Of a DNA stretch of 64,000 nucleotides, positions 33,698-39,476 are shown one piece after another. Both the position numbers and the translations under genes were made by a program. Source of the stretch: an uncultured Pelagibacteraceae bacterium (lineage in GTDB: Bacteria > Pseudomonadota > Alphaproteobacteria > Pelagibacterales > Pelagibacteraceae); NCBI GenBank assembly GCA_902520685.1, contig CABYPE010000003.1:1-64000 (forward strand). Reading direction: 5' to 3'. Position 1 is the first letter of the stretch. Each line of letters starts with the position of its first letter. The notes beneath the pieces are model-generated. The model saw nothing but the letters and a program-made list of their open reading frames with translations. It was not told the DNA's origin and made no database searches.

Positions 33698-34015
33698 ATG
33701 CTTAAAGATTTCAAAGATGAAGATTTTGAAAATAAAATCAAAAATGAAGACGTATCAGTAATTCAATTTTCTGCTGCTTGGTGTGGTCCTTGTAAGGCTC
33801 TAAAACCTGTAATGGATAAATTATCAGATGAATATAAAGACAAAGCTGGTTTTTATTATGCAGATATAGAAGATGGTGGAATTAATACTGGAAGTGCTGC
33901 AGGCATTAGAGGCGTACCTACTGTAATTGTCTACAAAAAAGGTGTTGAAGTAGATAGAAAAGTAGGTGGTGTTCCCGAGGGACACATGAAGGAATTTTTA
34001 GAAAAAAATATCTAA
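33698..34015 (+). CDS. trxA: Thioredoxin
   Basis: QFSAAWCGPCKALKPV; RGVPTVIVYKKG. Confidence 0.95.
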   Translation: MLKDFKDEDFENKIKNEDVSVIQFSAAWCGPCKALKPVMDKLSDEYKDKAGFYYADIEDGGINTGSAAGIRGVPTVIVYKKGVEVDRKVGGVPEGHMKEFLEKNI

Positions 34016-35280
34016 TTTAAATTCAGTACTTCACCAGCAAGATACAAAGAACCTGTTATTAAGATTAAATCATTTTTTTTGACCGGAATTGACTTAATTG
34101 CTTCAAATATATTTTCTTTGTATTGAACATTTTCTAAGTCAATTAGCTTATTTTTTAAATCTCTTCCCCCAATTGAGTTTGGTTGATTTGGAATATCTAC
34201 TGTGGTCAAGGTCGCAATTTCTTTAAAGTAACTCATATATTCTTGATGATCTTTATTAGCCATCATTCCAAGAATGATATGTTTATTGCAATTTAAGCTC
34301 TCTAAGTAATCGTTTAGAACTTTTGCACCTAAAGGATTATGAGATCCATCTACTAATAATCTATTTTTTTTAACTAAATCTTTTAATTTTCCCTCTGTAA
34401 TTTCCTGCAGTCTCGCAATACTTTCAATTTTTGTGACTCCATTCTTAATATGTTCATCATTTATATTAATTTCTTTGACTAATCTTAGAGTTGCGATTGC
34501 TGTTGAAATATTTTCTAATTGAAATTGACCATTTACATTAGGCCTTGGAAGCTTAATTCCCCCAGACATATCTTCATAATAGAAGAAACTATTTTCACTA
34601 TCTGAATAATTATAATCTTCATTAAAGAATAATTTATTAGATCTATTATCTTTTATTGTTTTTTTAATTTGTTCTGAAATTTCATTTGAACTTTGTTTTG
34701 CAACAATAATATTAGAATTTTGTAATTTTGATGTTTTTTCAAAAATAATTTTCTCTATAGTTTGCTCTTTTTTTGGAAGCCAATCTAAATGATCTAAGCC
34801 TATTGATGTTACAACACTTGCTAGGTTTTGATTTAAAATATTAGTTGCATCAAATCTATGGAATAGTCCTGTCTCAATTAGATTAATATTATTAGGGTAT
34901 TCTGCTGATTTATAAAAATATGCAGCTGTTAAAATTTCAAAAAATGTGATTGGCTGATTATCATTAACTTTTTCAACTTGTTCTAAAAGATTAGATAATT
35001 CATTATCACTAAGCTCTTTGTTATTAAGTACAAACCGTTCATTAATTTTTTTAATATGTGGACTGGTATAAATATTACAATTAATTTTTGCTTCTTTTAG
35101 AATTGCATACATTGCCTGGATTGTTGAGTATTTACCATTAGTACCAACTACAGAAATTGCTTTAATTTTATCTTGTGGATTGTCTAATTTTTTACAAAGA
35201 TTTAATATTCGATCTAAGCTAAGATCAATTTCTTTAGGATGCAGCTTTTGTAAGCGACTGACTATTTTCTGGAGTTTCAT
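34012..35280 (-). CDS. folC: Folylpolyglutamate/dihydrofolate synthase
   Basis: KLHPKEIDLSLDRI; GTNGKYST P-loop; TSIGLDHLDWL; LVDGSHNPLGAKVL. Confidence 0.9.
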   Translation of the reverse strand: MKLQKIVSRLQKLHPKEIDLSLDRILNLCKKLDNPQDKIKAISVVGTNGKYSTIQAMYAILKEAKINCNIYTSPHIKKINERFVLNNKELSDNELSNLLEQVEKVNDNQPITFFEILTAAYFYKSAEYPNNINLIETGLFHRFDATNILNQNLASVVTSIGLDHLDWLPKKEQTIEKIIFEKTSKLQNSNIIVAKQSSNEISEQIKKTIKDNRSNKLFFNEDYNYSDSENSFFYYEDMSGGIKLPRPNVNGQFQLENISTAIATLRLVKEININDEHIKNGVTKIESIARLQEITEGKLKDLVKKNRLLVDGSHNPLGAKVLNDYLESLNCNKHIILGMMANKDHQEYMSYFKEIATLTTVDIPNQPNSIGGRDLKNKLIDLENVQYKENIFEAIKSIPVKKNDLILITGSLYLAGEVLNLN

Positions 35281-36163
35281 TTTCTTCAGTGCTTATAACA
35301 GAATTTTTCTTTAACAATATTGATAATAAAGTTCCAATTTTTTCCGATAAATCTTTTCTCTCAACTATTAAATCAACAAATCCTGTTTTTTGCACATATT
35401 CACTTGTTTGAAAGTTTTCAGGTAGTTCTTCTTTGACTGTTCCTTGTATTACTCTTTTTCCTGCAAAGGCTATCAAAGATCCTGGTTCAGCTATATGAAT
35501 ATCACCTAACATTGCATAAGAAGCGGTTATTCCACCAGCAGTCGGATCAGTTATTAATACAAGATATGGTAAGTTATTATTCTTTAATTCATTAATAGCT
35601 AATGTTGTTCTAGTCATCTGAGATAGTGATATTAAACTTTCCATCATTCTCATTCCACCACCTGCACTTACACAAATAAATGGAGTTTGATTTTCTATAG
35701 CATGCTGAATTCCATATAAAAAAGCCTCACCTTCAGCCGAGGCCATTGATGCACCTAAAAAATCAAAGTCAGATGCAACAGCAGTTATCTTAATATTATT
35801 AATATTTCCACAAGCAACCATCATTCCACAATCAAGACCAGTTTTTTTACGAGCACTTTTTAATCTATCTTTATATGTTTTTGAGTCTGTCCACTCTAAA
35901 GGATCATCTTTAGGAATTGGTGTTTTAAAAACTTCGTAGTTATCTCTCCCAAAAAGAACATCAAATCTTTGATTAGGCTTAATTCTATGATGTTTATTAC
36001 AATCTGGACAAACCCATAAATTTTTTTCTAAATCTTTTTTTAAAATTGGGCCTTTACAACATGAGGTCCAGTCGCTTTTTGCTATTTCTTCTTTAGAGGC
36101 CCTTTTATGTATAGCAGTTTTTATTTTTTCACCTGCTTTAATTATTTTTGTAATCCAATTCAT
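35234..36163 (-). CDS. accD: Acetyl-CoA carboxylase carboxyltransferase subunit beta
   Basis: LGASMASAEGEAFLYGIQHA; SAGGGMRMMESLISL; ITDPTAGGITASYAMLGDIHIAEPGSLIAFAGKRVI. Confidence 0.95.
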   Translation of the reverse strand: MNWITKIIKAGEKIKTAIHKRASKEEIAKSDWTSCCKGPILKKDLEKNLWVCPDCNKHHRIKPNQRFDVLFGRDNYEVFKTPIPKDDPLEWTDSKTYKDRLKSARKKTGLDCGMMVACGNINNIKITAVASDFDFLGASMASAEGEAFLYGIQHAIENQTPFICVSAGGGMRMMESLISLSQMTRTTLAINELKNNNLPYLVLITDPTAGGITASYAMLGDIHIAEPGSLIAFAGKRVIQGTVKEELPENFQTSEYVQKTGFVDLIVERKDLSEKIGTLLSILLKKNSVISTEENETPENSQSLTKAAS

Positions 36164-36960
36164 TTAATTTTATTTTTAAGTCTTTTGACAATACTAGTAA
36201 CATTTGTGACAGTATTTTGTCTCCTGTTAATAGAATTAGTTATTTCCTTACAAATTGCACTTCCAACAACCAAACCATCAGCTTTTTTGAGTGATTTTAT
36301 TGTTTTTTCAGTAATTCCAAATCCAATTACAACATTCTTAGATTTATTTTGGTTTTTAATTTTGCTATATCTTTCTAATATCTTTCTAGAAGAGACTTTT
36401 AATTTGCCTCCTGTAGTTGAAAGCATACTTATATAATAAACCATATCATGAGAATCTTTGATTATTTTTTTTAACCTTATCTTAGATGTAGTAGGTGAGA
36501 CTAACTGAATAAAATTAATCCCCCTTTTTTTACATTTAGTAGAAAAACTTTTGTTTTCTGGATAAGGTAAATCCACAACAATTAATCCGTCAACTTTTGA
36601 TTTTTTACATTTCTCTAAAAATTTATTTTCACTATATTGAAAAATCATATTATAGTAACCCATAAGAATAATAGGTTTATTTTTTTTTGTTTTTTTAAAA
36701 TCTTTAGCTATTGAAAATACATCATTGATTTTTATGCCATTTTTAATGGCACGATAGGCACTAGTTTGTATTTGACCACCATCTGCAATAGGTGTGTTGT
36801 GTGGAAAGCCTAGTTCGCAAATATCAGCATGATTAGAAATTGATTTTAATATTTCTAATGATTTTTTTTTAGTATTGTCCCCAGCTACTGTGTAAGTAAG
36901 TAAAGCTGGTCTATTTTCATTTCTAGCATTTTGAAATGCCTGATTAATTAAAGAACTCAT
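36160..36960 (-). CDS. trpA: Tryptophan synthase alpha chain, divergent
   Basis: CELGFPHNTPIADG; ILMGYYNMIFQY; GLIVVDLPYPE; GFGI; ADGLVVGSAI. Confidence 0.88.
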   Translation of the reverse strand: MSSLINQAFQNARNENRPALLTYTVAGDNTKKKSLEILKSISNHADICELGFPHNTPIADGGQIQTSAYRAIKNGIKINDVFSIAKDFKKTKKNKPIILMGYYNMIFQYSENKFLEKCKKSKVDGLIVVDLPYPENKSFSTKCKKRGINFIQLVSPTTSKIRLKKIIKDSHDMVYYISMLSTTGGKLKVSSRKILERYSKIKNQNKSKNVVIGFGITEKTIKSLKKADGLVVGSAICKEITNSINRRQNTVTNVTSIVKRLKNKIK

Positions 36961-38189
36961 TATTTTATACCTAGTCTTTCTCTTAAAATATCTCTGTCTT
37001 TTTTTGCATCACCACATGAGTTTACAATTATAATTGTATCTTTACTTAATTTAGGAGCTATTTTAATTGCTTCTGCAAATGCATGACTTGGTTCTAAGCT
37101 AGGATTTAAATTTTCATATTTAGTAACCATTTGATGGGCATTTAACGCCTCTTCATCTGTTGCATATGTATATCTTGCTCTTTTAGTGTCCTTCAAAAAA
37201 CAGTGCATAGGACTTACACCAGGATAGTCCAATCCAGCACTAATAGATTCAGTCTCATTTATTTGTCCTTCTTTATTTTGACATACATAAGAAGCTGCTC
37301 CATGTAATATTCCAATTTTAGTTTTACGGCTTAGTGGAGCTGCATGAAGTTTTGATTTTTTAGGTCCACCTGCCTCAACACCAATTAATTCAATCTTTTT
37401 TTTATTATAGTCAATAAACTCGCTCCAAAATCCATATGCAGAACTTCCACCCCCAACACAGTTAATTAATTTTATTTTATTCGGTATTTTTTTAAATTCT
37501 GATTTTAATTGAAGTTTTAATTCTCTAGAAATTTGCGCTGTGCTCCAGCCACAAATTTTAACAAATATATTTGGACCAACAGTGCTTCCAACACACATAT
37601 GAGTGTTGTCACAATTTGATACCCAATATCTCATACATTCACTTACAGCATCAACTAATGTTTGGCTTCCAGAAAAAACAGGAACAATTTCAGCTCCATT
37701 TTTTCTCATTGCGTCACAGTTAGGTTTTTGTCTTTTAATATCCTTTGCACCCATAAATATTTTGCATTTAAGGCCAAATTTTTTAGCTGCCATACTTAAC
37801 ATTTTTCCTGCATAGCCAGCTCCAGTATCACCAACTATATATTTTTTACCCATTGCCTTACAAATAAGAGCATGAACAGTTGCATTATATATTTTGTGTG
37901 CACCTCCATTTGCTTCAGAGACAACTTTTGCCCAAATTTGAGCGCCGCCTAGTTGATTTGTTAAATTATTAAGTTTTACAAATGAAGTAGGAGCTCCAAT
38001 ATAATTTTTGAAATAATAATCTCTCTTTTTAAGAAATTTTTTATCTTTTCTTAATTTTTTAAATTCGTTTGTTAAATCATCTACAGGTTTTTTTAAAGTT
38101 TCCGGAATAAAACTTCCTCCAAATTTTCCACCCCAAAAGCCATATTGATCATGCTGATCAATTAATGGAATTCCTCTTTTAAGTTTCAT
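36960..38189 (-). CDS. trpB: Tryptophan synthase beta chain homolog, strongly divergent at active-site motifs
   Basis: FGGSFIPETL; NGGAHKIYNATVHAL (PLP Lys); GDTGAGYAGKM; GGGSSAYG; ISAGLDYPGVSP; LEPSHAFAEAIK; VNSCGDAKKDRD. Between trpA and trpF. Confidence 0.85.
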   Translation of the reverse strand: MKLKRGIPLIDQHDQYGFWGGKFGGSFIPETLKKPVDDLTNEFKKLRKDKKFLKKRDYYFKNYIGAPTSFVKLNNLTNQLGGAQIWAKVVSEANGGAHKIYNATVHALICKAMGKKYIVGDTGAGYAGKMLSMAAKKFGLKCKIFMGAKDIKRQKPNCDAMRKNGAEIVPVFSGSQTLVDAVSECMRYWVSNCDNTHMCVGSTVGPNIFVKICGWSTAQISRELKLQLKSEFKKIPNKIKLINCVGGGSSAYGFWSEFIDYNKKKIELIGVEAGGPKKSKLHAAPLSRKTKIGILHGAASYVCQNKEGQINETESISAGLDYPGVSPMHCFLKDTKRARYTYATDEEALNAHQMVTKYENLNPSLEPSHAFAEAIKIAPKLSKDTIIIVNSCGDAKKDRDILRERLGIK

Positions 38190-38805
38190 TGTGTACCTGT
38201 TTCATCTTATTCAAAAATATATCTATTTTGGATTTATCTTTTACCCCAGAAGTTTCTAGACCCCCAGATATATCTATAATATCTGCTATTTTTTTATAAT
38301 ATTCAAGATGATCATTTATTTGTATGTCACCTGCTATCATTAGTGGTTTGTTAATCTTTATTTTTTTAATAAGTTCATGATCAAAAGTCATACTTTTTTC
38401 ATAGCCCTTACTATCAAATAAATAAATGTCAGTTACCTCAGAAAACAAAGGGTACTTTTGAACATCACTTTCGTCTGTTACAGTTAAAGCAGTAATAATC
38501 TTTCTATTATATCTCTCTTTAATTTTTTTTATTTTTTTAGGTGTACAGTCATATATTTGGTAATAATCAAAGGGAAGGTCTTTAATTTTTTCTAAGATTT
38601 CTTCATCAGGATTAACCAATACTGCTACAAAATTAGATTTCTTTTTATCTAAAGTTAATAGTTCATTTAACTTTTCAGCCTCTACATATCTTGAACTTTT
38701 TTTATAATTGCAAATGAATCCAATAAATTGAGGCGGGTATTTATGGTTAATTATAAAACTAAGAGTATCGAGATCTGAGATCCCACAAATCTTACAACCT
38801 TTCAT
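38179..38805 (-). CDS. trpF: Phosphoribosylanthranilate isomerase homolog, divergent
   Basis: CKICGISDLDTLSF; IGFICNYKKSSRYV; IYLFDSKG; DISGGLETSGVKD; adjacent to trpB. Confidence 0.75.
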   Translation of the reverse strand: MKGCKICGISDLDTLSFIINHKYPPQFIGFICNYKKSSRYVEAEKLNELLTLDKKKSNFVAVLVNPDEEILEKIKDLPFDYYQIYDCTPKKIKKIKERYNRKIITALTVTDESDVQKYPLFSEVTDIYLFDSKGYEKSMTFDHELIKKIKINKPLMIAGDIQINDHLEYYKKIADIIDISGGLETSGVKDKSKIDIFLNKMKQVHNET

Positions 38806-39476
38806 TAGTTTAAATGATTGATTAATGTTTGAATATTTTTTTTAATGTTACCTTTAGTAATTGGTCTTCCAATTACCAACCAATCACTTCCATTTTTATA
38901 TGCCTGTTTAGGGGTTAAGACTCTTTTTTGATCATTTAATTTTGAATTAAATCTTATTCCAGGTGTAATGATCTCTTTCTTAAATACTTTTCTAACTATT
39001 TTAACTTCTTGTGCACTACAAACAATAGCATCTAATTTTGCTTTATTTGCCAATCTGGCTTGTTGGTAAACTAATTTTTTAACATTTTTATTAAAACCAA
39101 TTTCCTTAAGAGCTTTATTATCCAAAGATGTTAGGATTGTTACTCCTATTAATTTAGTTCTACCAGAAGCTTGCTTTGCTGCTTTTAGCGCCTCTAATCC
39201 TGAACAAATATGTATAGTACAATAATTAAATTTAAGATCTCTAATTGCTTTTAAAGCTGAGAAACAAGTATTTGGTATATCTGAAAATTTGTAATCTCCA
39301 AAGGTTGTTTTATTTTTTAATTTTGAAATAAATTTTCTTCCATTTTTTGAATTTAAAAACTCCAATCCAAACTTGTAGCCTATTTTTAATTTAGAAGTTT
39401 TTGATTTTTTTATTATTTCTTTAATTTTTGAAATATTTGTGCTGTCACAAGCTATGAATATTTTATTCTTCTTCAT
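38805..39476 (-). CDS. pyrF: Orotidine 5'-phosphate decarboxylase
   Basis: GDYKFSDIPNT (D-K-D catalytic motif); GVTILTSLD; TPGIRF; DWLVIGRPIT. Confidence 0.9.
   Translation of the reverse strand: MKKNKIFIACDSTNISKIKEIIKKSKTSKLKIGYKFGLEFLNSKNGRKFISKLKNKTTFGDYKFSDIPNTCFSALKAIRDLKFNYCTIHICSGLEALKAAKQASGRTKLIGVTILTSLDNKALKEIGFNKNVKKLVYQQARLANKAKLDAIVCSAQEVKIVRKVFKKEIITPGIRFNSKLNDQKRVLTPKQAYKNGSDWLVIGRPITKGNIKKNIQTLINHLN

Follow-up and report, generated by a model that had tools for sequence, protein, structure and literature searches.

The trpB frame in the window (the whole 64,000-nucleotide stretch of DNA that was analysed) very probably encodes the tryptophan synthase β subunit of SAR11 bacteria, an unusual form of this enzyme rather than one with a new reaction. 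This assignment to a SAR11 TrpB1, here called the D-type, is based on its membership in the TrpB1 family, on its adjacency to and co-variation with TrpA, on the complete tryptophan pathway and the lack of any other TrpB1 in single-contig relatives, and on purifying selection. The features of the region are listed in Table 1.

Identification of the Protein as TrpB1

In a profile search, the protein matched TIGR00263 (TrpB) with 394.3 bits over residues 21–403, covering positions 4–382 of the 385 in the model and passing the curated cut-off of 392.45, a threshold that some of its close relatives just miss. It also matches solved TrpBs (LBCA and Pyrococcus TrpB) over the full length, with E values of 1e-99 to 1e-101. 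The match to TrpB is far beyond chance and bears out the sequence-only reading, which had described a full-length, collinear TrpB homolog. The comparison of TrpB with TrpB2 profiles places the protein on the TrpB1 side, since its score against TIGR01415 (TrpB2) is 89.7 bits and does not reach the cut-off of 518.85. In its own genome, it is the sole match at the TIGR00263 level. Values of dN/dS between the gene and its relatives are 0.03–0.07, which indicates strong purifying selection on the frame.

Table 1. Genes of the trpBA region and codons of key TrpB residues in the window (residue equivalents in Salmonella/E. coli numbering).
Feature	Coordinates	Strand	Evidence
folC, conserved downstream neighbour	34012..35280	-	ORF, synteny, gene order in PMC2395257
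accD, acetyl-CoA carboxylase β subunit, conserved downstream neighbour, right border of exchanged segment	35234..36163	-	synteny, alignment break
trpA, tryptophan synthase α subunit; Glu49 and Asp60 kept, Asp56 to Thr	36160..36960	-	TIGR00262 216 bits over cut-off; PF00290
trpB, tryptophan synthase β subunit, SAR11 D-type, 409 aa	36960..38189	-	profile and solved-TrpB matches
codon of Ser250 = Asn236, PLP-phosphate loop GGGSN	37440..37442	-	alignment
codon of Val179 = Lys167, subunit-interface lysine	37653..37655	-	Val in all D-type, Lys in all canonical
codons of Tyr126-Ala127 = Gln114-His115	37809..37814	-	alignment
codon of Asp121 = catalytic Glu109 position	37827..37829	-	Asp in 185/185 D-type, Glu in 29/29 canonical
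codon of Lys99 = Lys87, PLP lysine	37893..37895	-	alignment
trpF, phosphoribosylanthranilate isomerase	38179..38805	-	PF00697 78 bits
pyrF, orotidine-5'-phosphate decarboxylase, conserved upstream neighbour	38805..39476	-	TIGR01740, PF00215, synteny

Retained and Replaced Residues

A set of 137 distinct SAR11 sequences was compared with 29 canonical TrpBs (E. coli and 28 others, including alphaproteobacteria), and per-residue counts were also made over 185 D-type rows against the same 29. Residues are numbered as in Salmonella/E. coli. The window TrpB keeps Lys87, His86, Gly111–Gly113, Arg141, Asp305, Glu350, and Ser235. The PLP lysine in (G/T)GAHK, the GGGS phosphate loop, and Glu350 are conserved throughout the D-type rows, and the Arg141–Asp305 salt bridge of the closed state is likewise retained. 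Nine sites are replaced, namely Glu109 by Asp, Gln114 by Tyr, His115 by Ala, Asn236 by Ser, Lys167 by Val, Tyr186 by Met, Pro196 by Ile, Pro198 by Val, and Arg379 by Asp. These changes are fixed or nearly so in the 137 SAR11 sequences, with 97–100% fixation of Asp109, Tyr114, Ala115, Val167, Met186, and Ser236, whereas the canonical set shows little or no variation at the same nine sites. Asp is present at position 109 in every D-type row and Glu in every canonical TrpB; the ETGAGQH motif of TrpB1 is absent from the D-type, and the carboxylate is retained. Position 148 is Ala or Ser in 181 of the 185 D-type rows, Arg148 being lost together with Gln114. Altogether, the D-type retains 84 of 139 near-invariant canonical columns, and 30 canonical near-invariant positions carry a different fixed residue.

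These comparisons agree with most of what had been noted from the sequence: the PLP lysine and the glutamate of LEPSHA are kept on the alignment, and the replacements at Glu109, Gln114-His115, and the GGGSN asparagine are real. The change of Ser377 to Cys, which had been taken as a further oddity, proved ordinary, as Cys377 (26 of the 29 canonical TrpBs) and Tyr306 (28 of 29) represent the alphaproteobacterial norm.

The TrpA Partner

The D-type TrpB is encoded next to a TrpA in which Glu49 is invariant and residue 60 is acidic. In canonical pairs, Lys167 of the β subunit faces Asp56 of the α subunit. This inter-subunit pair is missing from the D-type, where both sides have switched together to Val and to Thr, Ala, or Cys, respectively. 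Indeed, β Lys167 occurs only with α Asp56 or Glu56, and β Val167 or Leu167 only with α Thr56, Ala56, or Cys56, with no exception in 234 rows (redundant loci included) that span five TrpB types, although the independent events are few, at about two losses. This co-variation, together with the invariant Glu49 and the acidic residue 60, argues that each TrpB works with its neighbouring TrpA. Of 61 relatives, 52 have TrpA as well as TrpB1, and the other nine have neither.

Two further observations concern TrpA. A family of D-type partners (f2; L007-L020, L028; motif IIECGLGH.ANIGDG) carries Gly, Asn, and Gly in place of Pro53, Pro57, and Ala59; Glu49 and Asp60 are retained there despite the replacement of these other near-invariant positions. 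In genome G052 (C5:58381-59147; see L007), the match to trpA is split into two separate parts that lie in different frames, with a stop; the gene may be broken, or the assembly may be wrong here.

Distribution and the Tryptophan Pathway

The best 80 relatives in named genomes all belong to Pelagibacteraceae (SAR11), with 88–97% identity. Of the 218 genomes in the genus that are at least 85% complete, 209 match the window protein; most full-length matches are 74–97% identical, about a dozen are other TrpB types, and a few of the matches are weak and concern other enzymes. The replaced residues of the D-type were not found outside the order, where 290 class and 399 phylum genomes gave no match above 46% identity, and the TrpBs examined among the best class matches have the canonical ETGAGQHG or nearly so. 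The D-type may have diverged in place or have entered from outside SAR11; the deep TrpB tree is unreliable because of long branches. A few SAR11 genomes have an additional TrpB2-like gene (L096, L097, L098, L099, L246). Loss of TrpB in a second set of genomes, 14 relatives of 85–96% completeness, was considered and found unsupported: with accD as an anchor, 10 of the 14 also lack accD, and in the remaining four the contig stops at or inside the trpA–accD junction, the region being absent from the assembly wherever this could be checked.

Each of seven single-contig SAR11 genomes contains exactly one TrpB1-level match, as do others of 97–99% completeness, and trpD is present in all of these. 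The single-contig relatives also encode trpE-G-D-C. In one of them (G268, 1,308,759 bp), trpE-trpG-trpD-trpC-lexA are contiguous and the D-type TrpB shares 86% identity with that of the window. We provisionally take this genome to be that of HTCC1062 and another (G061) to be that of HTCC7211; the gene order agrees with the Sargasso Sea trpB study. That study describes one trpB in HTCC1062, with split operons EGDC and FBA, and judges it necessarily functional (PMC2395257). HTCC1062 has been grown in AMS1 supplemented only with glycine, methionine, pyruvate, and vitamins (PMC8918994), and HTCC7211 likewise with glycine, methionine, pyruvate, and vitamins (PMC6775983); given these additions, no tryptophan was supplied to either strain. 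In the assembly of the window's own genome (73% complete), trpE, trpD, and trpC were not found; since they form one cluster in relatives, a single missing contig explains their absence. According to the sequence-only reading, the enzyme would be simply a divergent tryptophan synthase if the genome had trpEGDC and no other trpBA, and the novelty claim would fall if close relatives with proven tryptophan prototrophy shared its residues. The complete relatives have trpEGDC with a single TrpB1, and the residues recur in HTCC1062 and HTCC7211, both grown without added tryptophan.

Probable Exchange of trpBA as a Cassette

The gene order of the locus is constant, yet the trpBA pair does not track its neighbours. 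Between the window and G366, the flanking proteins share 38% identity and TrpF 32%, whereas TrpB shares 82% and TrpA 66%. The opposite holds between the window and G012, with 75% for the flanks, 37% for TrpB, and 26% for TrpA. The flanks of G153 and G209 are 51% identical, compared with 91% for TrpB and 87% for TrpA, while L225 and L187 share 92.6% in PyrF and 97.4% in AccD but only 35.4% in TrpB and 28.1% in TrpA. When the DNA of these two loci was aligned, the similarity stopped near the end of trpF and resumed near the start of accD, the exchanged stretch being L225 1304-3421 against L187 5879-8014. In the tree, the TrpB of G366 falls among those of the window's genus. These patterns are most simply read as a swap of trpBA as a unit by recombination in the shared flanks. 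Among SAR11 lineages, the trpF–accD slot holds five or more highly dissimilar TrpB types. No D-type gene was found among the viruses of IMG/VR, and phage records gave only canonical-level matches, up to 43%, with no D-type copy.

Exchange of the trpBA cassette was also seen at L272, L102, L274, and L275, the slot being fixed between trpF and accD. Among the other types, the CESGAGQH type (L006/L102, L084, L225, L226, L232, L234, L235) and the CETGAGAH type (L004) keep Glu109 and Lys167 and have lost the Arg141–Asp305 pair, with Arg141 replaced by Leu in the latter and Asp305 by Gln, Thr, or Asn across both. The ETGASM type (L095, L240, L241, L242), which occurs in the window's genus and likewise in this slot, is an extremely divergent TrpB–TrpA pair with a stem branch of 2.9 and about 27% identity to the D-type.

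Proposed Mechanism and Alternative Explanations

In the D-type complex, TrpA would cleave indole-3-glycerol phosphate to indole, and TrpB would condense indole with the PLP-aminoacrylate formed from L-serine. Asp109 may take the role of Glu109 in stabilising the charge on indole N1, while Gly108, Tyr114, Ala115, Ala148, Met186, and Ser236 may remodel the pocket and so bring the shorter carboxylate within reach of indole; the α–β interface would function without the Lys167–Asp56 pair. The rebuilt pocket probably still activates indole via the carboxylate of Asp109. Two points weigh against the assignment. The Salmonella E109D mutant reportedly reacts far more slowly with indole but performs better with indoline. 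Moreover, Glu109, which stabilises positive charge on N1 of indole, has been described as essential for indole activation; in the same work, His115 faces Phe306 across the indole sub-site, and Gln114 forms bonds to Asn145 and Arg148 when the enzyme is closed (PMC9512447). No assay of a SAR11 TrpB was found in the literature searched, and a structure prediction from 17 near-identical rows (pLDDT 41) was discarded. Synthesis of tryptophan from indole and L-serine by the SAR11 enzyme is indirectly supported by the growth of relatives without tryptophan.

The sequence-only reading had offered two possibilities, a PLP-dependent β-replacement enzyme with an altered nucleophile or an unusual tryptophan synthase, and it is the second that stands. 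That the changed indole pocket admits a different nucleophile, either in place of indole or as an additional physiological substrate, would be in keeping with the replacement and subsequent fixation of positions 109, 114, and 115, all of which line or support that pocket, and with the published ties of Glu109 to indole activation and of His115 to the indole sub-site (PMC9512447). However, position 109 is still a carboxylate, the complete relatives with the whole tryptophan pathway have no other TrpB1, and the coupling and co-variation with a TrpA bearing Glu49 and an acidic residue 60 are constant; we therefore regard this explanation as quite unlikely. Also improbable is the idea that a second physiological nucleophile beside indole, or an electrophile preference suited to serine-poor cells, is what maintains the circulation of divergent trpBA pairs among SAR11 bacteria.

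That the TrpB is inactive or in decay, with tryptophan being imported, might be suspected from a score barely above the family cut-off and from the 30 changed near-invariant positions. Against this, dN/dS is 0.03–0.07, nearly every relative has an intact gene, the changed residues do not vary within the clade, and SAR11 isolates grow without added tryptophan, which leaves such decay a negligible probability. Equally hard to credit is a TrpB2-type enzyme (PLP-dependent, archaeal-like, and possibly O-phosphoserine dependent). Its one point of contact with the data, a weak TIGR01415 match of 90 bits, is set against a cut-off of 519 and 394 bits for TIGR00263, and a branch of 4.5 parts the window TrpB from SAR11 TrpB2 in the tree; the profile scores refute a TrpB2 identity. 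An unusual tryptophan synthase β subunit accordingly remains the preferred reading.

Significance and Comparison with Known Systems

Glu109 is a textbook catalytic residue, and SAR11 bacteria, which rank among the ocean's most abundant cells, appear to make tryptophan with Asp in its place, Gln114 and His115 also being lost and Lys167–Asp56 replaced on both sides. Nature has thereby rewired a model allosteric enzyme and tested the result over a long time, and the D-type TrpB is a useful start for TrpB engineering. The five strongly different trpBA types that replace one another in one slot clearly exemplify the exchange of a core biosynthetic complex in one piece, by which subunit compatibility is preserved.

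The divergent SAR11 TrpB1 cluster itself was already described in 2008: the trpB_1 cluster of the Sargasso Sea metagenome has the same gene and locus order as the window and, in the trpB section of that paper, forms a distinct, early-diverging TrpB1 cluster that includes HTCC1062 (PMC2395257). Active-site residues, co-variation with the partner, and trpBA exchange are not discussed in that section, and no paper on SAR11 TrpB active-site replacements, interface co-variation, or cassette exchange was found in a search covering few subscription journals. TrpB2 (TIGR01415) resembles the D-type in fold and chemistry but keeps ETGAGQW, forms a separate clade, and, in the SAR11 loci examined, was not found next to a TrpA. 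Canonical TrpB1 (E. coli, Salmonella, and alphaproteobacteria; TIGR00263) is, like the D-type, a full-length collinear fold-type II PLP protein with trpA adjoining, and the two share Lys87, His86, the Thr110–Gly113 carboxylate loop, the GGGS loop, Arg141–Asp305, and Glu350. At about 39–45% identity, the D-type differs from it at the 30 near-invariant positions, among them Glu109Asp, Gln114Tyr, His115Ala, Lys167Val, Tyr186Met, and Asn236Ser.
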